From Tropicibacter sp. Alg240-R139 (GTDB lineage Bacteria > Pseudomonadota > Alphaproteobacteria > Rhodobacterales > Rhodobacteraceae), in the NCBI RefSeq assembly GCF_900537075.1, contig NZ_UNRA01000001.1:1-64000 (forward strand): a DNA stretch of 64,000 nucleotides, in the 5' to 3' direction. Positions 2,216-14,972 of this stretch are shown piece after piece. The position numbers were made by a program, and so were the translations under genes. The notes under the pieces are model-generated. The model saw only the letters and a program-made list of their open reading frames with translations, made no database searches and was not told where the DNA came from. How positions within the stretch are numbered: the stretch's first letter is position 1; each line of letters begins with the position of its first letter.

Positions 2216-3091
2216 TCAGTTCCCCTGATTGCGAAACAGTCGCGTGGACGAGAACATCGACTCCAGCTCTTCGATCCGCTCCTTGCTCTCTTCCCAACGC
2301 GCGCCCTGAACTTCGGCAATGAGCGCCTCGACAATCAGCAGGATCGCCATTGTGCTGTCCCAGCTTGACGGCGCCTCGACCAGCCCGTTGAACGTGTAGT
2401 CTGCACAGCGCCCGATGGGAGACCCCCATTGATCGGTGAACAGCACCACCGTCACCCCGCGCTCGCTGGCGATCTGGGCGAGTTTTTCCAGATGTGTCTC
2501 GTACCGGCGGATGTCAAAGATCACCAGGACCGAGTTTTCGTCCATATCCAGCAGGTACTGCGGCCAGACGTTGGCGGAATTGCCCAGCATCGTCACATTG
2601 GGGCGGATGATCTGCATATGGTTGAACAGGTAATCCGCATTGGACCGGGTGATGCGCCCGCCCACCACATAAAGCGGTCGGGATTTGTCTGCCAGCAGGC
2701 GCGCGACAGCGTCGAACATCTCGGTGTCGACCCGTTCCAATGTGTGACGCATGTTGGTCCAGACCACCTGTGCAAACCGCATCAGGGGATGTTCGGCGCT
2801 GTCATCCACCATCCAGGCGTCGCGTTTGGACAGCGGTTGCTTGATCTGGGCCGCGACCTCTTCGCGCAAGGCATCTTGCAGAGCGGGAAAACCATCAAAC
2901 CCCAACTTGCGCGCCATACGGATCACTGTGGGGGTCGATACCCCGGCCGATGACGCCAGCTTGGTGATCGATTGCAACCCGCCCATCGGATAGTCCTGTA
3001 ACAGGACCGAGGCCAGCTGCCGCTCCGATGGTGTCAGCTCGGCGGTATGGTCCTGTAGCAATTGCTTCACAAGCTTGGTGGTCGGGGTCAC
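2216..3091 (-). CDS. RpiR-family transcriptional regulator
   Basis: A 291-residue regulator with an N-terminal HTH_6 domain (about residues 5-80; SITKLASSAGVSTPTVIRMA is the helix-turn-helix) and a C-terminal SIS sugar-phosphate-isomerase-like sensor domain. The GTG at 3091 is chosen because AGAGGG lies 8 bases before it; an ATG 16 codons upstream lacks such support. It is divergent from the amidohydrolase/TRAP/GS operon, and three related 16-bp dyads lie in the shared intergenic region. It therefore most likely represses or senses inducer for that operon. RpiR proteins usually bind phosphorylated sugars or amino compounds; the ligand here is unknown. Confidence 0.9.
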   Translation of the reverse strand: MTPTTKLVKQLLQDHTAELTPSERQLASVLLQDYPMGGLQSITKLASSAGVSTPTVIRMARKLGFDGFPALQDALREEVAAQIKQPLSKRDAWMVDDSAEHPLMRFAQVVWTNMRHTLERVDTEMFDAVARLLADKSRPLYVVGGRITRSNADYLFNHMQIIRPNVTMLGNSANVWPQYLLDMDENSVLVIFDIRRYETHLEKLAQIASERGVTVVLFTDQWGSPIGRCADYTFNGLVEAPSSWDSTMAILLIVEALIAEVQGARWEESKERIEELESMFSSTRLFRNQGN

Positions 3092-3145
3092 GGGATGCCC
3101 TCTTGTCTCGCATCGGCTATAGGCGACGCCTATGGGCACCGTCCA

Positions 3146-3234
3146 GTTAGCATTTACTACAGCCTAACCAGCTTTGTAGCGATGTCTACAGAAATAATAT
3201 TGACAGACGATGGCCGCCTGTAACTAATGCTACA
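3146..3234. promoter_or_regulatory. Three 16-bp dyads, candidate RpiR operators, with a promoter
   Basis: Three copies of a TGTAR-N6-CTAMM dyad occur: 3146-3161 (reverse strand, TGTAGTAAATGCTAAC), 3175-3190 (TGTAGCGATGTCTACA) and 3219-3234 (TGTAACTAATGCTACA). A TTGACA at 3200-3205 followed after 17 bases by ACTAAT (3223-3228) forms a promoter for the rightward operon. The third dyad covers its -10 and the second lies just upstream of the -35. This is the arrangement expected for repression by the divergent RpiR-type regulator. Binding is inferred from position and symmetry only. Confidence 0.65.
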
Positions 3235-3235
3235 C

Positions 3236-4018
3236 ATGTCTGCCAACACCGAGTCATTTCTGCTGTCCGATCTGGAACGCCCTGCGGCGTGTGCCCTGAA
3301 TGTGCGTGGCCAAGGTCAGGCCATTCTGGTCTGTGAGCACGCCAGCCGATTTGTCCCTGACAGCCTGAATGGCCTCGGCCTAAGTGATGAGGCCGCGCGC
3401 TCCCATGCCGCCTGGGACATCGGCGCGCTGGAGCTGTCGGTTGAGTTGATGCGCGCGCTGGATGCACCGCTCGTGCATTCGCGCGTTAGCCGTCTGGCCT
3501 ATGACTGCAACCGCCCCCCAAGCGCCCCTGACGCCATACCGCCCAAAAGCGAACGCTTTGACGTACCCGGCAATAATGACCTGTCCAACGCCCAGCGCAC
3601 TGCCCGCGTGATCGAAGTCTATGAGCCGTTCCGCGATCTGCTAAGCCAGACGCTGGACACCCGCCCCGCCCCACCGGTGTTGATCACCATTCACAGCTTC
3701 ACACCGATCTACCGCGGCGAGCGACGTACCGTTGAACTGGGCATCCTTCACGACACAGATGACCGCGCTGCGCAGCTGCTGCTGAAGGCGGCTCAAAGCA
3801 GTGGCTTAAACACCGCACTAAACGAGCCCTACTCCGCAACCGACGGTGTCACACACACGTTACGTGAGCATGGCCTAAAACGCGGATTGCCCAACGTAAT
3901 GATCGAAGTGCGCAATGATCTGATCGACACGCCCGCAGGTGTGAACCGCATCTCGGGCCTTTTGGCACCGATGCTGGCACAGATGGTCAAACAACTGACG
4001 ACGGAGGCCGCGGAATGA
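3236..4018 (+). CDS. N-formylglutamate amidohydrolase-family protein
   Basis: A 260-residue PF05013 (HutG-like) amidohydrolase. The conserved LVCEHASRFVP metal-site region is at about residues 30-40, followed by HAAWDIGALELS and CNRPPSAPDAIP. Relatives hydrolyse N-formyl-L-glutamate to formate and glutamate. No hut genes are nearby. It instead heads an operon with a TRAP transporter and a glutamine-synthetase-like ligase, so it may release glutamate from a glutamylated intermediate (inference). The ATG at 3236 or the one at 3227 could be used. Neither has a ribosome-binding site, and the promoter at 3200-3228 would place the transcript start almost at 3236, suggesting a leaderless message. 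The stop overlaps the next gene by 4 bases. Confidence 0.85.
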   Translation: MSANTESFLLSDLERPAACALNVRGQGQAILVCEHASRFVPDSLNGLGLSDEAARSHAAWDIGALELSVELMRALDAPLVHSRVSRLAYDCNRPPSAPDAIPPKSERFDVPGNNDLSNAQRTARVIEVYEPFRDLLSQTLDTRPAPPVLITIHSFTPIYRGERRTVELGILHDTDDRAAQLLLKAAQSSGLNTALNEPYSATDGVTHTLREHGLKRGLPNVMIEVRNDLIDTPAGVNRISGLLAPMLAQMVKQLTTEAAE

Positions 4019-4533
4019 ACTTCGCACGGCGTTACATCGCCTGGATTGACGGGATGAACCGACTGATCGGCCGGGTGGTGATGTACGGCATCTTTGTGAT
4101 GATGGGCATTCTGCTGTGGTCTTCGATTTCCAAAACTTTTTTCCTGCCATCGCTCTGGACGCTGGAAATGGCGCAGTTTGCCATGGTCTCCTACTACATC
4201 CTGGGCGGGCCTTATTCGATCCAGATGGGGTCGAACGTGCGGATGGACCTGCTCTATGGCGAATGGTCGGTCCGAAGACAGGCCTGGACCGACGCCTTTA
4301 CGGTGTTTTTCCTGATCGTCTACCTCTGCGTCATGCTCTATGGCGGCTATGACTCCTTAAGCTACTCGCTGCAGTACGGCGAGCGCAGCCCCACCGCCTG
4401 GCGCCCCTACCTGTGGCCGATCAAGACCATCATGTGCGTTGGTCTGTTCCTGATGCTGCTGCAGGCGATTTCCGAGCTTTTAAAAGACATCCTGCGTATC
4501 CGCGGAGAAGACATTCCGAAGGAGACCATCTGA
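4015..4533 (+). CDS. TRAP transporter small permease (DctQ-type)
   Basis: A 172-residue membrane protein with four predicted hydrophobic segments and the TRAP small-subunit pattern (ALWTLEMAQFAMVSYYILGG region after the first helix). It pairs with the large permease and the Tat-exported binding protein encoded next to form a sodium-dependent solute importer. Start and stop overlap both neighbours (4 and 1 bases), so translation is coupled. The substrate is not evident from this subunit. Confidence 0.92.
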   Translation: MNFARRYIAWIDGMNRLIGRVVMYGIFVMMGILLWSSISKTFFLPSLWTLEMAQFAMVSYYILGGPYSIQMGSNVRMDLLYGEWSVRRQAWTDAFTVFFLIVYLCVMLYGGYDSLSYSLQYGERSPTAWRPYLWPIKTIMCVGLFLMLLQAISELLKDILRIRGEDIPKETI

Positions 4534-5858
4534 TGTCATATGAGCTGATCGCAATCCTCATGTTCTCGACCATGATGCTGATGCTGATGACCGGCCAGCG
4601 TGTGTTCGGGGCCATCGGGTTTGTGGCGGTCATGGCCTCGCTCCTGCTCTGGGGGGATCGGGGCGGCTATGACCTGGGCTTTTCGGCCGCGATGAAGCTG
4701 ATGAAGTGGTACCCGCTGCTGACGCTGCCGATGTTCATTTTCATGGGCTATGTGCTGTCCGAGAGCAAGATCGCCGACGACCTTTATAAGATGTTCCACG
4801 TCTGGATGGGTGGACTGAATGGCGGGTTGGCGATTGGCACCATCGGGTTGATGGTTCTGATCTCTGCCATGAACGGGCTTTCGGTTGCAGGCATGGCCAT
4901 CGGATCGACGATCGCCCTGCCCGAGCTGCTCAAACGCGGCTACGACAAGAAAATGGTGACGGGGGTTATCCAGGCGGGATCGAGTCTGGGCATCCTTGTG
5001 CCGCCCTCAGTGGTTCTAGTGCTCTATGCGATGATCGCGCGCCAACCGGTGGGCCAGCTCTGGCTTGCTGGCGTCGTTCCCGGTTTAATGATGGCGTCGA
5101 TGTTCATCCTGTATATCGTGATCCGCTGCCGGATGAACCCGGCGCTTGGCCCTGCCCTGCCAAAAGAAGAGCGCGACGTCCCGATGGATGAAAAGCTCCG
5201 GCTGTTGCGCTCTGGCCTGCTGCCACTTGGCATTTTTGCTGCGATGATGGTGCCCTTCGTGAACGGTTGGACGTCGCTGGTGGAAAGCTCGGCCATCGGC
5301 GCGCTGACCGCCTTTGCCGCTGCTGTGCTCAAGGGCCGGATGACGCGCGAGGTATTTGAGAAGTCTGTACGCTCCACCCTTGGAATTTCGTGCATGTTCA
5401 TGTGGATCATCCTCGCCGCGCTCGCGTTCGGCGCCGTGTTCGACGGTCTGGGCGCGGTCAAAGCCATCGAGAATGTCTTCACTGAACGCCTTGGCTTAAG
5501 CCCTTGGATGATCCTGATCCTGATGCAGCTCAGCTTTATCCTGATGGGCACGTTCCTGGATGACACGGCCATGCTGGTCATCGTGGCCCCGCTTTATGTG
5601 CCACTGGTGGGTGAGTTGGGTTTTGATCTAATCTGGTACGGCGTGCTCTACACGATCACCACCCAGATCGCCTATATGACCCCGCCGTTTGGCTACAACC
5701 TGTTCCTGATGCGGGCCATGGCCCCGCCCGAGATCACATTGCGCGACATCTACGGCTCAATCCTGCCTTTTGTTCTGGTGATGGCGCTTGCGTTGGCAAC
5801 GATCATGACCTTCCCGCAGATTGCGCTGTGGCTGCCGGACTACGTCTACAGCAAATGA
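4533..5858 (+). CDS. TRAP transporter large permease (DctM-type)
   Basis: A 441-residue, roughly 12-helix DctM-family protein. Family-typical stretches include IQAGSSLGILVPPSVVLVLY and YMTPPFGYNLFLMR near the C-terminus. The ATG at 4533 shares one base with the stop of the small permease, which fixes the start. It is the transport channel of the importer and is cotranscribed with the upstream amidohydrolase. A 68-bp gap follows before the binding-protein gene. Confidence 0.94.
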   Translation: MSYELIAILMFSTMMLMLMTGQRVFGAIGFVAVMASLLLWGDRGGYDLGFSAAMKLMKWYPLLTLPMFIFMGYVLSESKIADDLYKMFHVWMGGLNGGLAIGTIGLMVLISAMNGLSVAGMAIGSTIALPELLKRGYDKKMVTGVIQAGSSLGILVPPSVVLVLYAMIARQPVGQLWLAGVVPGLMMASMFILYIVIRCRMNPALGPALPKEERDVPMDEKLRLLRSGLLPLGIFAAMMVPFVNGWTSLVESSAIGALTAFAAAVLKGRMTREVFEKSVRSTLGISCMFMWIILAALAFGAVFDGLGAVKAIENVFTERLGLSPWMILILMQLSFILMGTFLDDTAMLVIVAPLYVPLVGELGFDLIWYGVLYTITTQIAYMTPPFGYNLFLMRAMAPPEITLRDIYGSILPFVLVMALALATIMTFPQIALWLPDYVYSK

Positions 5859-5926
5859 CCACAACAACTGATCCCGGGCACACCGGGGCATCCGAACCGA
5901 CCAATAACAACCATGGGAGAGAACCA

Positions 5927-6961
5927 ATGACGACAAGACGCAAGTTTATCACCACCGCCGCCCTCGGCACTGCCGCGGCCCCGCTGGCCACACCGGCACT
6001 GGCGCAGTCCACCATCAAATGGCGGATGCAGACTTATGCGGGCGCAGCCCTCGCCGAGCATGTGATTGATCCCGCAATCAAGATGTTCAACACCATCGCA
6101 GGCGACCGCATGCAGATCGAGCTGTTCTACGCCGATCAGCTGGTTCCAACGGGCGAGCTGTTCCGCGCCATGCAACGTGGCACCATTGATGCCGTGCAAT
6201 CCGATGATGACTCGATGGCATCGCCCACCGAAGTCACGGTGTTCGGCGGCTACTTTCCCTTCGCCTCGCGCTATTCTCTGGACGTGCCGGTGCTATTCAA
6301 CCAGTACGGGTTGAACGAGATCTGGGATGCGGAGTATTCCAAGGTTGGCGTAAAGCACATCAGCGCGGGCTCGTGGGATCCGTGCCACTTTGCCACCAAA
6401 GACCCAATCCGCTCGCTGGCTGACCTCAAGGGCAAACGTGTCTTCACCTTCCCAACGGCGGGCCGCTTCCTGGCACAGTTCGGCGTCGTGCCGGTCACCC
6501 TGCCATGGGAAGACATCGAAGTTGCAGTGCAAACTGGCGAGTTGGACGGCATCGCCTGGTCCGGCATCACCGAGGACTACACTGTTGGCTGGGCTGACGT
6601 GACCAATTACTTCCTGACCAACAACATCTCGGGCGCTTGGGCCGGGTCGTTCTTTGCCAACATGGACCGCTGGAACGAGCTGCCGGAAGATCTGCAAACC
6701 CTGTTCCGCGTCTGCTGTGACCAGTCGCACTACTACCGTCAGTGGTGGTACTGGGGGGGTGAGGCCAATCTGCGGGTCAACGGCCCCAAGATGGAGCTGA
6801 CTTCGATCCCCGACGAAGAATGGGCCACGGTCGAAGCGGCTGCGCGCGTTTTCTGGGATGAAATCGCAGCCGAGTCCGAGACCAAGGCGAAGGTTGTCGA
6901 GATCTTCAAGCAGTATAATGCGGACATGGAAAAGGCCGGTCGCCCCTACCGCTACGGCTGA
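5927..6961 (+). CDS. TRAP transporter substrate-binding protein (DctP-type), Tat-exported
   Basis: A 344-residue periplasmic binding protein. The ATG at 5927 has GGGAGAG upstream and opens a twin-arginine signal (TTRRKFITTAALG) ending at an Ala-x-Ala site (TPALAQ). The mature part is a DctP/TAXI-type fold; the segment TFPTAGRFLAQFGVVPV is part of the ligand pocket region. Tat export of a TRAP binding protein occurs in the branch that handles keto acids and amino compounds, but the ligand here is not assignable. It is followed by two perfect palindromes that may stabilise or attenuate the transcript ahead of the ligase gene. Confidence 0.92.
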   Translation: MTTRRKFITTAALGTAAAPLATPALAQSTIKWRMQTYAGAALAEHVIDPAIKMFNTIAGDRMQIELFYADQLVPTGELFRAMQRGTIDAVQSDDDSMASPTEVTVFGGYFPFASRYSLDVPVLFNQYGLNEIWDAEYSKVGVKHISAGSWDPCHFATKDPIRSLADLKGKRVFTFPTAGRFLAQFGVVPVTLPWEDIEVAVQTGELDGIAWSGITEDYTVGWADVTNYFLTNNISGAWAGSFFANMDRWNELPEDLQTLFRVCCDQSHYYRQWWYWGGEANLRVNGPKMELTSIPDEEWATVEAAARVFWDEIAAESETKAKVVEIFKQYNADMEKAGRPYRYG

Positions 6962-6993
6962 TATGAACAGATTTGGCCCGCTGCTTGGCGGGT

Positions 6994-7043
6994 CAAATTT
7001 CTTACGTAAGAAATTTGGTCAGATTTTTTGGAAAAAATCTGAC
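6994..7043. repeat. Two adjacent perfect palindromes
   Basis: Two back-to-back inverted repeats sit between the binding-protein gene and the GS-like gene. The first has arms CAAATTTCTTAC (6994-7005) and GTAAGAAATTTG (7006-7017) with no loop. The second has arms GTCAGATTTTTT (7018-7029) and AAAAAATCTGAC (7032-7043) with a 2-base loop. Both are perfect 12-bp arms and they abut without a spacer. They could be cruciform/REP-like DNA or RNA hairpins that set differential expression of the binding protein against the downstream enzymes. Confidence 0.9.
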
Positions 7044-7062
7044 ATCGCAGAAAAGGTGCGTC

Positions 7063-8418
7063 ATGCTGACATTCGAAACCCTTAAGGAACAAGCCATCTC
7101 TGGCGAGGTGGATACGGTTCTGGTGTGTCTTGTGGATATGCAGGGCCGCCTGATGGGCAAACGCTTTCACGTACAGAACTTCCTCGACAGTGCTTACGAG
7201 GAAACCCATTGCTGCAACTACCTCCTGGCCACCGACCTCGAAATGGCAACGCCGGACGGCTACAAGGCCACCAGTTGGGAAGCGGGCTATGGCGACTATG
7301 TCATGAAACCCGACCTTTCCACCCTGCGCCCGATGCCATGGCTTGAAGGGACCGTGATGGTGCTCTGTGACGTGTTGGATCACCACACGCACGAACCTGT
7401 CCCGCATTCCCCGCGCCAGATCCTGCAGGCGCAGATTGCCCGCGCCGAAGCCATGGGCCTGACCCCGATGATGGCGACCGAGTTGGAATTTTTCCTGTTC
7501 GACCGCACCTTTGACGAAATCCGCGGAGGTGATTTTCGCGATCTGACACCGATTTCGGGCTACAACGAAGACTATCACATCCTGCAAACCAGCAAAGAAG
7601 AGCACGTGATGCGGCCGATCCGCAATCACCTCTATGCCGCTGGAATTCCTGTGGAAAACACCAAAGGCGAAGCCGAGGCAGGGCAAGAAGAGCTCAACAT
7701 CCGCTACGCTGACGCTTTGGCTTGCGCCGACAACCACACCATCGCCAAACACGCCACCAAAGAGATCGCGCATTTCCACGGCCACGCCGCGTCTTTCCTG
7801 CCGAAATGGCACCACGACAGGGTTGGCTCGGCCAGTCACGTGCACCTGTCGCTGTGGCGCGACGGCAATCCCGAATTCTATGACGCCGACGCCCCCCATG
7901 GCCTAAGCACCTTGGGCCGTCACTTCTGCGCCGGCATGATCAAATACGCGCCCGATTACACCTTCTTCCTTGCGCCTTACGTGAACAGCTACAAACGCTT
8001 CATGAAAGGCACCTTTGCCCCCACCAAGACCGTCTGGTCAGTGGACAACCGCACCGCCGGTTTCCGCATGTGCGGCGAAGGCACCAAGGGCGTGCGCATG
8101 GAATGCCGCATCGGCGGGTCTGACCTTAACCCCTACTTGGCACAGGCCGCACTTCTGGCCGCTGGATTGAAAGGGATCGAGGACAAGTTAGAGCTTGCCC
8201 AGCCCACGGCTGGCGATCTCTACGAGGACAGTGATGCACGTGAAATCCCGCGCACGCTGCGCGACGCCGTAGAAACCCTGCGCGAGTCATCCATGTTGCG
8301 CGACGCCATGGGCGATTGGGCCATGGACCACTACACCCGTTGCGCTGAATGGGAGCAGGAAGAGTTTGACCGCGTGGTAACCGATTGGGAAATCGCGCGC
8401 GGGTTCGAAAAAGCTTGA
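7063..8418 (+). CDS. Glutamine synthetase-family gamma-glutamyl ligase
   Basis: A 451-residue GS fold enzyme with recognisable catalytic blocks: ATELEFFLF, GEAEAGQEELNIRYADAL, SASHVHLSLW, NSYKRF, WSVDNRTAGFR and ECRIGGSDLNPYLA. In a cluster with a transporter, two dehydrogenases and an amidohydrolase, rather than with glnB/ntr genes, such proteins usually act like PuuA/IpuC/GlnA4. These join glutamate to an amine or amino alcohol at ATP cost. The ATG at 7063 has AAAGGTG upstream. It could instead be a true glutamine synthetase paralogue, but the context argues for catabolic gamma-glutamylation (inference). Confidence 0.85.
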   Translation: MLTFETLKEQAISGEVDTVLVCLVDMQGRLMGKRFHVQNFLDSAYEETHCCNYLLATDLEMATPDGYKATSWEAGYGDYVMKPDLSTLRPMPWLEGTVMVLCDVLDHHTHEPVPHSPRQILQAQIARAEAMGLTPMMATELEFFLFDRTFDEIRGGDFRDLTPISGYNEDYHILQTSKEEHVMRPIRNHLYAAGIPVENTKGEAEAGQEELNIRYADALACADNHTIAKHATKEIAHFHGHAASFLPKWHHDRVGSASHVHLSLWRDGNPEFYDADAPHGLSTLGRHFCAGMIKYAPDYTFFLAPYVNSYKRFMKGTFAPTKTVWSVDNRTAGFRMCGEGTKGVRMECRIGGSDLNPYLAQAALLAAGLKGIEDKLELAQPTAGDLYEDSDAREIPRTLRDAVETLRESSMLRDAMGDWAMDHYTRCAEWEQEEFDRVVTDWEIARGFEKA

Positions 8419-8429
8419 CATGTCGGACT

Positions 8430-8472
8430 GGGGCACTGCCCCAGACCCCGGAGTATTTTTGAAAAGATGAAG
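8430..8472 (+). repeat. Dispersed intergenic repeat, family A, copy 1
   Basis: A GC hairpin (GGGGCACTGCCCC, 8430-8442) is followed by CCCCGGAGTATTTTTG and then AAAAGATGAAG. It lies directly behind the GS-like gene. Five further copies in this window share the same AT box and, in most cases, the adjoining GC hairpin (near 31411, 39398, 39541, 50946 and 59403). Confidence 0.85.
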
Positions 8473-8508
8473 TCAGGGACGATGTTGTCCTTTAGTTGGA
8501 GTTCAGTG

Positions 8509-9885
8509 ATGACTGGAACCGTTCAGTGTTTCTCGCCGATTGACGGATCGGTTTATCTGGAGCGGCCCTTGGCCAGCTCGAACGAAGCCAAGGCCGCCGC
8601 CGCACGAGCCAAGGCCGCGCAAAAGGCATGGGCCGCGCGTCCCTTGGCCGAGCGTATCGCTCTGGTGCAGGCCGCCGTGGCCGAGGTGGGCAAGACCACC
8701 GACCGCATGGCTGTGGAACTGGCTCATCAGATGGGCCGCCCGGTGCGCTACGGTGGAGAGTTCGGCGGCTTCAACGAACGCGCCAGCCATATGGCAGACA
8801 TCGCACAAAGCGCGCTTGCGCCAATCGTGGTTGAAGACAGCCCAGCCTTCCTGCGCAAGATCGAACACGAAGCGCATGGTGTGGTGTTGGTCGTCGCGCC
8901 CTGGAACTACCCTTACATGACTGCGATCAACACCGTGGCCCCTGCCCTGATCGCGGGCAACACCGTGCTGCTGAAACACGCCGCCCAAACCTTGCAAGTG
9001 GGTGAGCGGATGGCCGAGGCGTTCCACGCTGTCGGCGTGCCCGAAGATGTATTCCAGAACCTGTTCCTGAGCCACGACACCGCGGCCGAGTTGATTTCGG
9101 GCCGTCACGTAAATTTCGTCAACTTCACCGGCTCGGTTCGCGGCGGTCAGGCGATGGAACGCGCGGCTGCGGGCACGTTCACCCCGGTCTCGACAGAACT
9201 GGGCGGCAAGGACCCCGGCTATGTCCGCGCCGACGCCGATCTGGAAGCCGCGGTTGATACGCTGATCGACGGGGCCTTGTTCAATTCCGGCCAATGCTGT
9301 TGCGGGATCGAGCGGATTTATGTGCATGAGAGCCTTTATGACGCTTTTGTCGAAAAAGCGGTGACGTTGGTCAACACCTACAAGCTAGGCAACCCGCTAG
9401 AGGCCGAAACCACCCTGGGCCCGATGGCGCATGTGCGGTTCGCGCAAGAGGTCCGCGCCCAGATCGCCGAGGCCGTGGACGCAGGCGCCGTGGCCCATAT
9501 CGAGACGATGGAGGCCGACGATGGCGGCGCTTATCTGACGCCGCAGATTCTGACCAATGTCTCCCACGACATGCGCGTCATGCGCGACGAGAGCTTTGGC
9601 CCGGTTGTGGGCATCATGAGGGTCTCGAACGACGACGAAGCCATCGCGCTGATGAACGACAGTCCGTTTGGCCTTACCGCCTCGATCTGGACCGCCGACA
9701 CAGACACGGCAAACGCGATCGGCGCACAGCTGGAAACCGGCACCGTCTTCATGAACCGCTGTGATTACCTGGATCCGGCCTTGTGTTGGACCGGCTGCAA
9801 AGACACCGGGCGCGGTGCAGGCTTGTCCGCCTTGGGCTTTCATGCTCTGACGCGGCCCAAATCCTACCACCTGAAAAAGGGCTGA
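8509..9885 (+). CDS. Aldehyde dehydrogenase (NAD(P)-dependent)
   Basis: A 458-residue ALDH. Seen: the Rossmann segment VVAPWNYPYMTAINTVAPAL, FTGSVRGG, the general-base glutamate in STELGGKDPGYV, and the nucleophile region NSGQCCCG with the central cysteine at residue 264. A TTGGAG box precedes the ATG at 8509; an upstream ATG at 8467 lies within the family A repeat. It stops 4 bases before the alcohol dehydrogenase gene. In the proposed pathway it would oxidise a gamma-glutamylated aminoaldehyde to the acid (inference). On sequence alone it is a generic succinate-semialdehyde-type ALDH. Confidence 0.92.
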   Translation: MTGTVQCFSPIDGSVYLERPLASSNEAKAAAARAKAAQKAWAARPLAERIALVQAAVAEVGKTTDRMAVELAHQMGRPVRYGGEFGGFNERASHMADIAQSALAPIVVEDSPAFLRKIEHEAHGVVLVVAPWNYPYMTAINTVAPALIAGNTVLLKHAAQTLQVGERMAEAFHAVGVPEDVFQNLFLSHDTAAELISGRHVNFVNFTGSVRGGQAMERAAAGTFTPVSTELGGKDPGYVRADADLEAAVDTLIDGALFNSGQCCCGIERIYVHESLYDAFVEKAVTLVNTYKLGNPLEAETTLGPMAHVRFAQEVRAQIAEAVDAGAVAHIETMEADDGGAYLTPQILTNVSHDMRVMRDESFGPVVGIMRVSNDDEAIALMNDSPFGLTASIWTADTDTANAIGAQLETGTVFMNRCDYLDPALCWTGCKDTGRGAGLSALGFHALTRPKSYHLKKG

Positions 9886-9889
9886 ACTG

Positions 9890-11035
9890 ATGAAACTTGT
9901 TGGCAACTGGTCCTACCCCACCGCCATGCGCTTTGGCGCGGGCCGCATTTCTGAAATCGCCGACGCCTGCGGCGCGGCTGGCATCACCAAGCCGCTGCTG
10001 GTGACCGACAAAGGCCTGGCTGATCTGCCGATCACGCAAGCCACGCTGGACCTGCTCGAGGCGGCAGGCCTGGGCCGGGCGATTTTCTCGGACGTTGACC
10101 CGAATCCGAACGAGAAAAACGTCGAGGCCGGGCTGGCCGTCTACCGCGAAGGCGGCTTTGACGGGGTCATCGCTTTTGGCGGCGGCTCTGGCCTGGACCT
10201 GGGCAAGACGCTGGCCTTCATGGCCGGCCAGACGCGCCCCCTGTGGGATTTCGAGGATGTTGGCGATTGGTGGACCCGCGCCGACCCCGCAGGCATCCAC
10301 CCCATCGTGGCCGTGCCCACCACTGCTGGCACTGGATCTGAGGTGGGGCGTGCTGGTGTCATCACCAACTCGCTCAGCCACGAGAAAAAGATCATCTTCC
10401 ACCCGCTGATGTTGCCCAAGGTGGTGATCTGCGACCCGGAACTGACCGTGGGGATGCCGAAATTCATCACCGCGGGCACCGGTCTGGATGCGTTCGCGCA
10501 TTGTGTCGAAGCCTTCTGCTCGCCGCATTATCACCCGATGAGCCAAGGCATGGCGCTGGAAGGTATGCGCCTGGTCAAAGACTATCTGCCGCGCGCTTAT
10601 GCAGACGGCACCGACCTAAAGGCGCGCGCGCATATGATGTCAGCGGCGGCCATGGGCGCGACCGCGTTCCAAAAGGGTCTGGGCGCGATCCACGCCCTGT
10701 CGCACCCCATCGGCGCGCATCACCACACGCACCACGGCACCACAAATGCGGTCTGTATGCCCGCTGTTCTGCAGTTCAACCGCCCCGCAGCCGAAGGCGT
10801 GCTGACACAAGCCGCCGCCTATCTGGGTATTGAGGGCGGGTTTGAAGGGTTTGCAGCTTATGTCGACAACCTGAACGAGAGCCTTGGCATTCCCAAGACA
10901 CTGACCGGGTTGGGCGTCACCAATCCCGACTTGGACATATTGGTGCGCGATGCGCTCAACGACCCGTCAACCGGCGGCAACCCGGTAGAAATGACGCCCG
11001 AGAACACCCGTGCCCTGTTCGAAGCGATCCTCTGA
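9890..11035 (+). CDS. Iron-containing alcohol dehydrogenase
   Basis: A 381-residue group III (PF00465) alcohol dehydrogenase. It has the nucleotide motif FGGGSGLDLGKTLAF, the AVPTTAGTGSEV signature, and metal-binding histidines in GLDAFAHCVEAF, HALSHPIGAHHH and THHGTTNAV. It is the last gene of the RpiR-controlled operon and follows the ALDH by only 4 bases. A role in oxidising an alcohol group on the imported or glutamylated substrate is inferred. A hairpin follows 43 bases after the stop. Confidence 0.92.
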   Translation: MKLVGNWSYPTAMRFGAGRISEIADACGAAGITKPLLVTDKGLADLPITQATLDLLEAAGLGRAIFSDVDPNPNEKNVEAGLAVYREGGFDGVIAFGGGSGLDLGKTLAFMAGQTRPLWDFEDVGDWWTRADPAGIHPIVAVPTTAGTGSEVGRAGVITNSLSHEKKIIFHPLMLPKVVICDPELTVGMPKFITAGTGLDAFAHCVEAFCSPHYHPMSQGMALEGMRLVKDYLPRAYADGTDLKARAHMMSAAAMGATAFQKGLGAIHALSHPIGAHHHTHHGTTNAVCMPAVLQFNRPAAEGVLTQAAAYLGIEGGFEGFAAYVDNLNESLGIPKTLTGLGVTNPDLDILVRDALNDPSTGGNPVEMTPENTRALFEAIL

Positions 11036-11274: not shown

Positions 11275-11994
11275 ATGAGAAATTCGATCCTGGCAGCCCT
11301 CGGGCTGACCGTTGCGCTCGCGCAATCCACCGCAGCCGCAGAATTGGTTGGTGGCTATGTCGATCTTGGCTATTCCGCCTTCACAGACAACACACGCCTA
11401 TCCAAACGCTCGCTGACCGGTTCGGGCGAGGTTGCCTTTACCCGCACCTTTGGCCTGCAAGCCGATCTGGGTCTGTATGACCTGAACGTGGTCAGCGAGG
11501 TCGGAACCAATGTGACCCTGCACGGCAATTTCCACGTGGGTGATTTCACCTCGCTTGGTGTTTTTGCTGGGCGCGACAACCTCAACAACCAGGGCGTGAA
11601 CTTTTACGGCGTCGAGGCGGGCCACGAAACAGGCCGCGTTGAATTCGAAGGCTACGCATCCGTCGCCGACGCGGCAGGAAACAACGGCAGCAATGGTACC
11701 CTGGCTGGCCTGCAAATTCGGGGCAACATCAACGAATCCTGGCGCCTAAAAGCCAACGTCGACTACATCGACGCGCGCAATGGCGTTGACGCAACCCGTT
11801 ACAGCATCGGCGCGGATTACGACTTTGGTCAGGGCGGTGCGTTCTACGCCGAAGCGGGCGGATTTGACGCCAACGCAGGCACCGCGGGCGCAAACGAGGC
11901 TTTTGTCGGCTTTGGCCTGCGCTACAATCTGGGCACCAAGCGCGGCACCACATTTGGCCGTCGCGGGTTCTTGGACAAGCTGCCCGGCCTCTGA
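11275..11994 (+). CDS. Exported beta-barrel-like protein, paralogue 1
   Basis: A 239-residue protein with a signal peptide (about 22 residues, ending STAAA-EL). Its body alternates short hydrophobic and polar strands rich in Gly, Asp, Asn and aromatic residues, as in small outer-membrane barrels or porin-like proteins. It ends TTFGRRGFLDKLPGL. The next gene encodes a protein of the same length with the same layout and C-terminus (TTFGRRAILDRLPGM), so they are tandem duplicates that have diverged. I do not recognise a named family. It lacks the terminal aromatic residue typical of BAM-assembled barrels. Confidence 0.75.
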   Translation: MRNSILAALGLTVALAQSTAAAELVGGYVDLGYSAFTDNTRLSKRSLTGSGEVAFTRTFGLQADLGLYDLNVVSEVGTNVTLHGNFHVGDFTSLGVFAGRDNLNNQGVNFYGVEAGHETGRVEFEGYASVADAAGNNGSNGTLAGLQIRGNINESWRLKANVDYIDARNGVDATRYSIGADYDFGQGGAFYAEAGGFDANAGTAGANEAFVGFGLRYNLGTKRGTTFGRRGFLDKLPGL

Positions 11995-12167
11995 TCCATC
12001 TGTGGCGTCGGCGCCTCGGGTGGCGTCGACGATTCCCCCATAACCTTTAACACTTTACCTGATTCGCTCCGTGCATTAGATTGTGCCTATCAGAGCGCGC
12101 AAAGCGCCGTGCAGAGATGCACAACACAATCCCGTGCGGATATGCACGAGGCAAAGGAGCAGAACAT

Positions 12168-12878
12168 ATGAAACCCCATGCGGTGGCGGCGGTGCTTGCC
12201 ATGGGGCTCGTCCCGATCAGCGCGAACGCTCAGGCAATCAGCGGCGCAAATGTTGACGTGTCCCACTATCAGTTCACCAACAACTCCAAAGGCACGCGCC
12301 AGGCGCTGCGCGGGTCCTTTGAACTTGGTCTCAGCGATACATTCTCGACCCAGATCGATTTGGGCTATTACCGGTTTGGCCAAAGCAACACATCTGGCCA
12401 CAGCGCCACTTTGCACGGCGTCTATCAGTTTGACTACGGCGGTGCCGTGGGCGCCTTTTGGGGCACCGAGGACGAGAACACCATCGACCGAAATTTCTAT
12501 GGGCTCGAAGCCATCTACGACTTCACCGGCATGACGGTCGAAGGGTATTTTTCGCGCGGGCGAGTGCAGGGCCAGAACGCCACTCTGCTGGGTGCTAAGA
12601 TCAGCAGTGATGTGGGCACAAATCTGAACCTAAACGCGCAGGTCGACTATATGAACAACAAAACCGGCTCGGACCTGACCCGTCTGGCCATTGGCGCTGA
12701 CTATGAACTGGGCAGCGGCGTGGCGCTCTATGGCGAGCTGGGCAACGGCAACGCCCGCGTCGCCAATTTCAGCTCCAGCGACGCCTTCATCGGATTTGGC
12801 ATGAAGTTCAACCTGGGCGACCGCCCCGGCACCACTTTTGGCCGACGCGCTATTCTGGATCGCCTGCCAGGCATGTAA
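12168..12878 (+). CDS. Exported beta-barrel-like protein, paralogue 2
   Basis: A 236-residue product. The ATG at 12168 follows AAAGGAG with good spacing and opens a signal peptide (cleavage near SANAQA). Repeated strand-like segments (IDLGYYRFGQ, HGVYQFDYGG, LNAQVDYMNN, IGADYELGSG) align with paralogue 1, including the shared end TTFGRR..LD.LPG. It probably resides in the outer membrane or periplasm; function unknown. The 173 bp between the two genes leave room for a separate promoter. A GC-rich hairpin with a TTTTT tail follows. Confidence 0.75.
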   Translation: MKPHAVAAVLAMGLVPISANAQAISGANVDVSHYQFTNNSKGTRQALRGSFELGLSDTFSTQIDLGYYRFGQSNTSGHSATLHGVYQFDYGGAVGAFWGTEDENTIDRNFYGLEAIYDFTGMTVEGYFSRGRVQGQNATLLGAKISSDVGTNLNLNAQVDYMNNKTGSDLTRLAIGADYELGSGVALYGELGNGNARVANFSSSDAFIGFGMKFNLGDRPGTTFGRRAILDRLPGM

Positions 12879-13161: not shown

Positions 13162-14133
13162 ATGCAGGGGAAACTGACATCACTGGAGCTGTGCGCGGGC
13201 GCCGGTGGTCAGGCCTTGGGCATCGAACGAGCCGGGTTTGGGCATGAAGCCATGGTCGAGGTCGACAAGTGGTGTCGCCAGACCCTGTCGCTGAACCGCC
13301 CCCAATGGAATGTTATCGAGGGCGAGCAGGCCGATCTGACCAATTTTGACGCGCGCCCCTTTGCCGGGGTTGATCTGGTGGCCGGTGGCGTACCCTGCCC
13401 CCCATTTTCCAAGGCAGGCAAACAACTGGGCGCTGCCGATGAACGAGACCTGTTCCCCGAAGCTTTGCGTGTCGTGGACGAGGTACGTCCCAAAGCTGTG
13501 ATGCTGGAAAATGTACGTGGCTTCATGGATGCGGTGTTCCACGACTATCGGCAAAAGCTGAAGTCGCAGCTCAAAAAGATGGGATACAGCTTTGTTGACT
13601 GGCATCTCTACAACGCCAGTGATTTTGGCGTGTCGCAATTGCGCCCTCGGGTGGTGATCGTTGCAGTGCGGGATGAGTTTGCAGACAAGTTCGAATGGCC
13701 CAAAGGCGGTGATATGCAGCCGCCCAGCGTGGGCCACCTGCTGCATGACCTGATGGGCGCGCGGGGCTGGACCGGCGTGGACCGCTGGCGCGATGGCGCC
13801 GATGAAATTGCGCCGACCATCGTCGGTGGGTCAAAAAAGCATGGCGGCCCGGATCTGGGCCCAACCCGCGCCCGGCGCGCGTGGGAGGTTTTGGGCGTCA
13901 ACGGCAAATCTATCGCCGAAGAAGCACCTGATCCCGATTTTGAGGGTCTGCCACGGCTGACCGTCCGTATGGTGGCTCGCATTCAGGGGTTCCCGGATGA
14001 CTGGCAATTTGCCGGGCGCAAGACCAATGCCTATCGACAGGTGGGCAACGCCTTTCCGCCGCCCGTGGCCGAAGCTGTAGCGCGCAACGTCAAAGCGGCG
14101 ATCACCGCGCGGCGCCTGTACGCGGTTGCCTGA
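13162..14133 (+). CDS. DNA (cytosine-5) methyltransferase of an NgoMIV-like R-M system
   Basis: A 323-residue C5-MTase. Motif I is LELCAGAGGQALGIERAGF, motif IV is GGVPCPPFSKAG with the catalytic Cys79, motif VI is LENVRGF, and the C-terminal motifs IX-X include RQVGNAFPPPVAEAVA. The ATG at 13162 has AGGGG upstream. The next gene, 2 bases after the stop, encodes a nuclease closely resembling NgoMIV, so this enzyme should protect GCCGGC by methylating a cytosine. The specificity is inferred from the partner, not from the target-recognition domain itself. Confidence 0.93.
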   Translation: MQGKLTSLELCAGAGGQALGIERAGFGHEAMVEVDKWCRQTLSLNRPQWNVIEGEQADLTNFDARPFAGVDLVAGGVPCPPFSKAGKQLGAADERDLFPEALRVVDEVRPKAVMLENVRGFMDAVFHDYRQKLKSQLKKMGYSFVDWHLYNASDFGVSQLRPRVVIVAVRDEFADKFEWPKGGDMQPPSVGHLLHDLMGARGWTGVDRWRDGADEIAPTIVGGSKKHGGPDLGPTRARRAWEVLGVNGKSIAEEAPDPDFEGLPRLTVRMVARIQGFPDDWQFAGRKTNAYRQVGNAFPPPVAEAVARNVKAAITARRLYAVA

Positions 14134-14135
14134 AC

Positions 14136-14972
14136 ATGACCTGGCTGCGCGATGCGCGGGCGCGGTTTCATGCCAACTGCCTGTCCGGTCCGATCACTGA
14201 AACACGCGGTGTTCCGTCCGTGGCGGATGTCTCCAACGCGTCGAGCCGGGCAATCGCTACGGCCATGGTGGCCAAGATCGGCCCACTGATCAGCCACGCC
14301 GAGAAACCGGCCGGGCAAACCGCCGGCAGCCTGTTCGAGGCGGCATGTCAGGTTTTTTTGGCCGAATGCTTCGAGCAGTTCGCGCATCTGCGGCCCGGAC
14401 GGTTTTCGGTCGAACGCGGGCAGCCGATCTCGCGCTACGCGCAGTATGCCCACCTGGACGAACTGCGCGCGTTGGCCGATGCGAGCCGGACGCTTAAGAC
14501 GCATCTGGGCACAGATTACCTGATCAAACCGGATGTGGTCGTCGTGCGCGGCGCCGAAACGGATGCAGTAATCAACCAGTCTGAAACGCTGGTGGATGGA
14601 AGCATTGCCGAGAACACAGGCCTGCGTCAGACCAATGGGGCACGGGCGACGTTGCATGCCTCGGTCAGTTGCAAACTGACGATCCGATCGGATCGGGTAC
14701 AGAACACGCGATCCGAGGCATTGAACCTGATCCGTAACCGCAAAGGTCGACTGCCGCATATCGTGGCGGTCACGGCCGAACCAGTGCCCTCGCGGATCGC
14801 GGCGATTGCCCTGGGAACCGGGGATATGGACTGCGTCTATCATTTTGCACTGCCTGAATTGGTGGCGACCCTGCGCGAGCAGGAGCGAAACACGCTGGAA
14901 CTGGTCGAAACGATGATCGACGGGCAGCGCCTCAGGGACATTTCGGATCTGCCTCTGGACTTGGTGGTTTAG
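14136..14972 (+). CDS. NgoMIV-like type II restriction endonuclease (predicted GCCGGC)
   Basis: A 278-residue nuclease strongly resembling NgoMIV as I recall it. Shared features are the active-site PD...SxxK pattern (D133 in IKPDVVV; K180 in SVSCK), the base-reading TIRSDR block (R184-D186-R187), and long conserved stretches such as NLIRNRKGRLPHIVAV and the C-terminus DISDLPLDL. NgoMIV-family enzymes act as tetramers and cut G^CCGGC. The gene starts 2 bases after the methyltransferase without a strong ribosome-binding site, suggesting coupled and limited translation. All catalytic and recognition residues I can identify are intact, so it looks functional. Confidence 0.92.
   Translation: MTWLRDARARFHANCLSGPITETRGVPSVADVSNASSRAIATAMVAKIGPLISHAEKPAGQTAGSLFEAACQVFLAECFEQFAHLRPGRFSVERGQPISRYAQYAHLDELRALADASRTLKTHLGTDYLIKPDVVVVRGAETDAVINQSETLVDGSIAENTGLRQTNGARATLHASVSCKLTIRSDRVQNTRSEALNLIRNRKGRLPHIVAVTAEPVPSRIAAIALGTGDMDCVYHFALPELVATLREQERNTLELVETMIDGQRLRDISDLPLDLVV

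Follow-up and report, generated by a model that had tools for sequence, protein, structure and literature searches.

A probable ethanolamine gamma-glutamylation (eto) gene cluster with a TRAP importer in Tropicibacter sp. Alg240-R139

Introduction

In the sea, ethanolamine released from phosphatidylethanolamine serves as a source of nitrogen and carbon, and roughly 5 to 10% of ocean bacteria are reported to carry its importer gene (PMC10132767). The closest described system is the ethanolamine cluster of Phaeobacter sp. MED193 (MED193_10021-10056), for which the order RpiR-GGAH-EtoV-EtoW-EtoX-ETAGA-GAADDH-GETADH was predicted (Westermann and others, Sci. Adv. 2023; PMC10132767). As reported there, the binding protein EtoX binds ethanolamine with a Kd of 7.9 uM and does not bind phosphorylethanolamine, glycerol phosphates or phosphocholine. 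On phosphorylethanolamine, five proteins of the cluster are up. Here, we describe a locus of this kind at positions 2216-11035 of a 64,000-nucleotide stretch of Tropicibacter sp. Alg240-R139 (contig NZ_UNRA01000001.1, positions 1 to 64,000), which is called the window below.

The pathway has also been proposed for Chromohalobacter salexigens, where it is assigned to the families PF00120, PF00465, PF00171 and PF05013 (PMC9397018). The amidohydrolase of the gamma-glutamylglycine-releasing step is placed in the formylglutamate amidohydrolase family, PF05013 (PMC6529630, PMC9397018). The standing of the pathway differs among the sources: gene function is stated to be demonstrated in C. salexigens and A. 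tumefaciens in PMC10132767, the C. salexigens pathway is an in silico prediction in PMC6529630, and it is a proposed one in PMC9397018. The C. salexigens binding protein Csal_0678 is known from a crystal structure with ethanolamine (4UAB), in which Glu220 contacts both the amine and the hydroxyl group and aromatic side chains surround the ligand (PMC12410723). It is described as being without the usual carboxylate-binding Arg, the equivalent of SiaP Arg147 (PMC4646407).

Results

Gene content and layout of the locus

The locus is very probably an eto cluster, that is, a predicted route of ethanolamine gamma-glutamylation without eut genes. All eight genes that a sequence-only reading of the window had listed are present in the order and on the strands given there, and their families were matched in Pfam. 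The tripartite ATP-independent periplasmic (TRAP) importer lies between the hydrolase and a glutamine synthetase (GS)-like ligase, which is followed by an aldehyde dehydrogenase (ALDH) and an iron-dependent alcohol dehydrogenase (ADH):

2216..3091, minus strand: RpiR-family regulator, divergent from the operon (HTH_6 58.7 bits and SIS 66.9 bits, Pfam)
3236..4018, plus strand: PF05013 hydrolase, probable gamma-glutamylglycine amidohydrolase (GGAH; FGase 138.4 bits, cut-off 28.9)
4015..4533, plus strand: TRAP small permease DctQ (EtoV; 67.4 bits, Pfam)
4533..5858, plus strand: TRAP large permease DctM (EtoW; 224 bits, Pfam)
5927..6961, plus strand: TRAP binding protein DctP (EtoX), predicted ligand ethanolamine (270 of 319 positions identical to the 4uab chain)
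7063..8418, plus strand: GS-like ligase, probable ethanolamine gamma-glutamylase (ETAGA; Gln-synt_C 327.8 bits, cut-off 24)
8509..9885, plus strand: ALDH, probable gamma-glutamylacetaldehydeamide dehydrogenase (Aldedh 383.6 bits, Pfam)
9890..11035, plus strand: iron ADH, probable gamma-glutamylethanolamide dehydrogenase (Fe-ADH 156.1 bits and ADH_Fe_C, Pfam)

In the published account of MED193, the same eight functions stand in an identical order, including the TRAP importer, the RpiR regulator and the gamma-glutamylglycine amidohydrolase. The hydrolase and dctQ genes overlap by 4 bp and dctQ and dctM by 1 bp, and the ALDH and ADH genes are 4 bp apart; such tight spacing, with the regulator on the opposite strand, fits a single operon. 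The start of DctP was refined to the ATG at 5927, and for the regulator the GTG at 3091 is the likelier predicted start than 3139, to which the open frame extends. Finer models did not name the two dehydrogenases: the ALDH stayed under the cut-off of each of 25 NCBIfam models checked, out of 45, and the iron ADH under that of all 14 NCBIfam models listed. The genome, 99.8% complete, consists of 14 contigs with 4,655,854 bases in all.

The binding protein and its probable substrate

The best PDB matches of the binding protein are 4uab and 4xf5, which are one chain (E 2.7e-193), and the next match is far weaker (E 1.9e-17). With an identity of 84.6% over the ungapped positions compared, it belongs to the Csal_0678/EtoX kind of binding protein. 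In an alignment of the window protein with those of 81 loci, a Glu at position 217, counted along the 4uab chain, is invariant in 82/82 binding proteins, and it is the Glu closest to 220 within that chain; it is probably the Glu220 of PMC12410723 under a different numbering, with the offset being assumed. The carboxylate-binding Arg appears to be missing, with Phe174 in its place opposite the Arg of another TRAP binding protein of the same genome (26% identical); this position is approximate, as it comes from one alignment that included unrelated reading frames of L120 as extra rows. Ethanolamine can probably be named as the substrate, given how closely the protein is related to an ethanolamine-binding protein. 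A ligand without an amino group, the case that would have told against the sequence-only reading, is not what this relationship suggests.

A second class of EtoX was observed among the 81 loci. Its 22 members, from L041, L048, L056 and a further 19 loci, are less than 70% identical to the binding protein of the window. Across the class, aromatic and other residues are exchanged (e.g., W151Q, F174Y, W195Y and Y270T), and Glu217 is kept. One of these loci, L041, has a second-class EtoX though its seven other proteins are 66 to 88% identical. This class may have a different ligand.

The GS-like ligase

The ligase matches two PDB entries far better than any other, namely 5dm3 (E 2.6e-218) and 11zs (E 4.6e-174), with the third match at E 2.8e-58; we take 5dm3 to be Csal_0679. 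It falls below the NCBIfam cut-offs for type III glutamine synthetase (250.7 of 469.6), type I glutamine synthetase (241.6 of 429.15) and gamma-glutamylputrescine synthetase (219.4 of 650). The counterparts of Glu129, Glu131, Glu212, Glu220, His269, Arg321, Arg339, Arg344, Glu357 and Arg359 of GlnA are conserved in 101/101 aligned ligases, whereas position 327, which is Glu in E. coli GlnA, is Phe in all 101. All of these, Glu327 included, are taken as GlnA site residues. GlnA positions 50 and 53 were placed differently by two ligase alignments, and no inference was drawn from them.

In a tree of 18 rows, for which every ninth of 100 ligases was sampled, E. coli GlnA and the GlnA of the same genome separate from the ligase and the rest with 100/100 support. 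This GlnA is encoded elsewhere in the genome and scores 532.2 bits against a cut-off of 429.15. The grouping of the ligase with ammonia-using GlnA, which would have spoken against the sequence-only reading, was thus not recovered, and an ammonia-using glutamine synthetase was rejected as an identity of the ligase on the basis of the GlnA cut-offs, Phe at position 327 and its place in the tree. The nearest named relatives, among the best 80 of at least 586, belong to the Rhodobacteraceae (e.g., Ruegeria spongiae, 90% identity over the best segment), and the ligase of a genome of the same genus is 97% identical.

Two further GS-like genes lie next to each other elsewhere in the genome (C2:777854-780947; L006 and L008). 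They are below every NCBIfam GS cut-off listed and cluster with PuuA in the tree, where long branches were flagged.

The PF05013 hydrolase

The hydrolase has no NCBIfam match at E 0.001, HutG TIGR02017 (cut-off 278.75) included, and the true HutG is another protein of the genome, with 343.5 bits against that cut-off. On these two grounds, an N-formylglutamate deformylase of the HutG type was rejected as its identity. Its best PDB match is 2odf, the hypothetical protein Atu2144, which is 47.7% identical. When the window protein, those of the loci and Atu2144 were aligned (81 rows, those longer than 180 residues being kept, with gaps skipped in calling positions invariant), 32 positions were invariant. 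Ten of them, H35, R86, D90, N92, R93, R124, P131, H153, N196 and E224, are also common to three paralogues of the same genome that are only 18 to 32% identical. These residues fit a predicted working hydrolase. Besides, in five loci without an eto binding protein (L077, L081, L088, L138 and L144), all of which have the contig room for one, the hydrolase still stands beside the ligase, which suggests that it is tied more to the enzymes than to the importer.

Conservation across genomes

The full set of eight genes, in the same order and on the same strands, was recovered from 59 of the 80 loci of named genomes and from 10 of the 20 loci of lower identity from the same family. The 80 loci are the best 80 of at least 586 relatives, and a gene was counted as present when tblastn gave a match at E 1e-15 over at least half of the query, with distant TRAP permeases included in the count for DctM. 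Such recurrence argues that the arrangement is not due to chance. The ligase was found at E 1e-100 or better in 59 of 100 sampled genomes of the family, Tropicibacter sp. Alg240-R139 included. Among these 59 carriers, 29 were without a locus in the first set, of which 20 served as the lower-identity loci and nine were left out (G082, G002, G095, G048, G069, G089, G061, G030 and G021). The conservation of gene order expected for roseobacters therefore stood for most of the carriers examined, and it did not extend to all of them.

Some loci depart from the standard form. In an Amylibacter metagenome-assembled genome (L102:4737-13883), a phosphonate-type binding protein, an ABC transporter and two HAD-family hydrolases precede the ligase, the ALDH and the ADH, with no TRAP genes; a phosphorylated amine might be imported there. 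Two Litoreibacter loci (L077 and L081, 8432-13892) have the hydrolase, ligase, ALDH and ADH without eto TRAP genes, and L077 carries a DeoR-type regulator. A GMC oxidoreductase and a DAO-type FAD oxidoreductase lie directly ahead of the ligase, ALDH and ADH at L110:7037-9924. In five loci with contig room (L073, L076, L079, L090 and L148), the ADH is present, but an ALDH next to the ligase was not detected.

Regulatory elements and neighbouring genes

Two non-coding features were found within the locus:

3175..3190, no strand assigned: TGTAG-N6-CTACA inverted repeat in the divergent promoter region, candidate operator by predicted function
6962..7062, plus strand: three consecutive stem-loops between EtoX and the ligase (minimum free energy -37.8 kcal/mol, z -3.90)

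The candidate operator adjoins a TTGACA at 3200-3205. The exact repeat is present in 10/16 regions with an RpiR of 60% or higher identity (the window included) and in 3/60 others, and a relaxed form in 15/16 and 6/60, respectively. About 0 are expected in letter-shuffled sequence, the control being a simple letter shuffle; the regions are related by descent and the counts are not independent. One of the three stem-loops is built on a perfect 22-base palindrome, and the same gap is hairpin-rich by eye in ten relatives, where its sequence is not conserved. The stem-loops possibly lead to uneven expression of the binding protein.

Upstream of the locus, an amidohydrolase with a signal-like start (599-1984; Amidohydro_1, 130.6 bits) adjoins the regulator and lies outside the conserved order tested. 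Downstream, two small similar-looking outer-membrane-type proteins are encoded in tandem (11275-12878), one with a weak Porin_4 match (38.4 bits) and the other with no Pfam match at E 0.0001. They are followed by a restriction-modification pair at 13162-14972, consisting of a C5-cytosine DNA methylase and then an NgoMIV-family restriction enzyme (322 bits).

Discussion

In the proposed route, the TRAP importer EtoVWX would import ethanolamine, which the GS-like ligase would join, at the cost of ATP, to the gamma-carboxyl group of glutamate. The iron ADH would then oxidize gamma-glutamylethanolamide to the aldehyde, the ALDH would convert the aldehyde to gamma-glutamylglycine, and the PF05013 hydrolase would split this into glycine and glutamate. 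The glutamyl attachment probably prevents a reaction between the amine and the aldehyde. The RpiR protein would control the divergent promoter in response to a signal that it is presumed to sense. Each enzymatic step is predicted for this organism from the observed gene content, gene order, homology, invariant residues and conservation. Import, glutamylation, oxidation of alcohol and aldehyde, and release by the PF05013 enzyme, as the sequence-only reading had put it, is the best-supported reading and matches the predicted and proposed pathways in print.

The two features held to be new were not. A TRAP importer is already published for the MED193 ethanolamine cluster (PMC10132767), and release by an N-formylglutamate-type enzyme is in print both as the amidohydrolase of that cluster (PMC10132767) and as an enzyme family (PMC6529630, PMC9397018). 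It follows that the cluster was already known, and the chemistry first read from the sequence is probably right without being new. What the window adds is a further genome, the gene-order survey and the candidate operator.

Two other known routes were considered for the locus and rejected. The eut pathway by ethanolamine ammonia-lyase was set aside as EutB had 0 matches in the genome, with the E. coli control being positive. A Puu-type pathway was set aside since the eight genes include no PuuD-type (C26) hydrolase and no PuuB-type oxidase; the C26 matches of the genome are all outside the locus.

Several observations weigh against the eto assignment. Support for the fork that unites the eto ligases is no higher than 83/81, and that 18-row tree has flagged long branches. 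The likeness to MED193 is one of published gene order and names. PMC12410723 gives the ligand-contacting residue as Glu220, and the invariant Glu lies at 217 by chain count. The hydrolase was not detected in 12/80 and 8/20 loci and the ALDH not in 7/80 and 2/20, some of these loci being cut by contig ends, and 41 of the 100 family genomes gave no ligase match at E 1e-100.

The enzyme families leave the substrate unfixed, so that the same chemistry might mainly serve another small amino alcohol (e.g., 2-amino-1-propanol), with alanine released instead of glycine. The ligand in entry 4xf5, of the same chain as 4uab, is presumably a different amino alcohol, not ethanolamine, and we counted this entry in favour of the possibility. 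However, the Kd of the MED193 EtoX for ethanolamine and the rise of the cluster proteins on phosphorylethanolamine (PMC10132767), together with the ethanolamine contained in 4UAB (PMC12410723), make such a substrate very unlikely. An ordinary ammonia-using glutamine synthetase that came to lie in a transport operon by chance would account for the family membership of the ligase and for the ten Glu, His and Arg residues that it shares with GlnA. It would leave unexplained the fully supported split from both GlnA proteins, the replacement of Glu327 by Phe in every row, the scores under the type I and type III cut-offs and the true GlnA elsewhere, and we regard it as extremely improbable.

The releasing step is the point that still lacks proof in the literature searched, which yielded no hydrolase assay; the primary C. 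salexigens papers were outside that search. The PF05013 protein could have another job, such as deformylation, with a PuuD-type or other hydrolase from elsewhere in the genome performing the release. This would agree with the loci in which the hydrolase was not detected, with the missing assay and with a strong PuuD-family protein elsewhere in the genome (C26, 202.6 bits). Nevertheless, the PF05013 gene leads the operon in 59/80 loci and accompanies the ligase in the five loci without an eto binding protein, the genome has a separate true HutG, and the MED193 homologue by position is up on phosphorylethanolamine (PMC10132767). A different releasing enzyme is therefore quite unlikely, and the PF05013 hydrolase remains the preferred one for the eto route.

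A broader view, in which the core of ligase, dehydrogenases and hydrolase is a module that joined lineage-specific importers and branched to other amino alcohols or phosphoethanolamine, is tentative and on balance unlikely. If it were true, the second EtoX class and the L102 locus with its ABC transporter would mark new substrate ranges, and the cluster of the window would still be the standard ethanolamine form.

Beyond MED193, the ethanolamine cluster of the window can be compared with three described systems. The E. coli Puu pathway (PuuA, PuuB, PuuC and PuuD) follows the same logic of glutamylation, oxidation and hydrolysis, but differs in employing PuuP, with PuuB as oxidase and PuuD as hydrolase, and the ligases are 29.3% identical. 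The GlnA4 cluster of Streptomyces coelicolor, as presented in PMC6529630, likewise combines a ligase, dehydrogenases and a proposed hydrolase of the formylglutamate amidohydrolase family. In contrast to the window, a short-chain dehydrogenase takes the place of the iron ADH, and the transporter is another one, the regulator is EtuRI and a glutamine amidotransferase gene is present. With C. salexigens, the window has PF00120, PF00465, PF00171 and PF05013 enzymes in common (PMC9397018).

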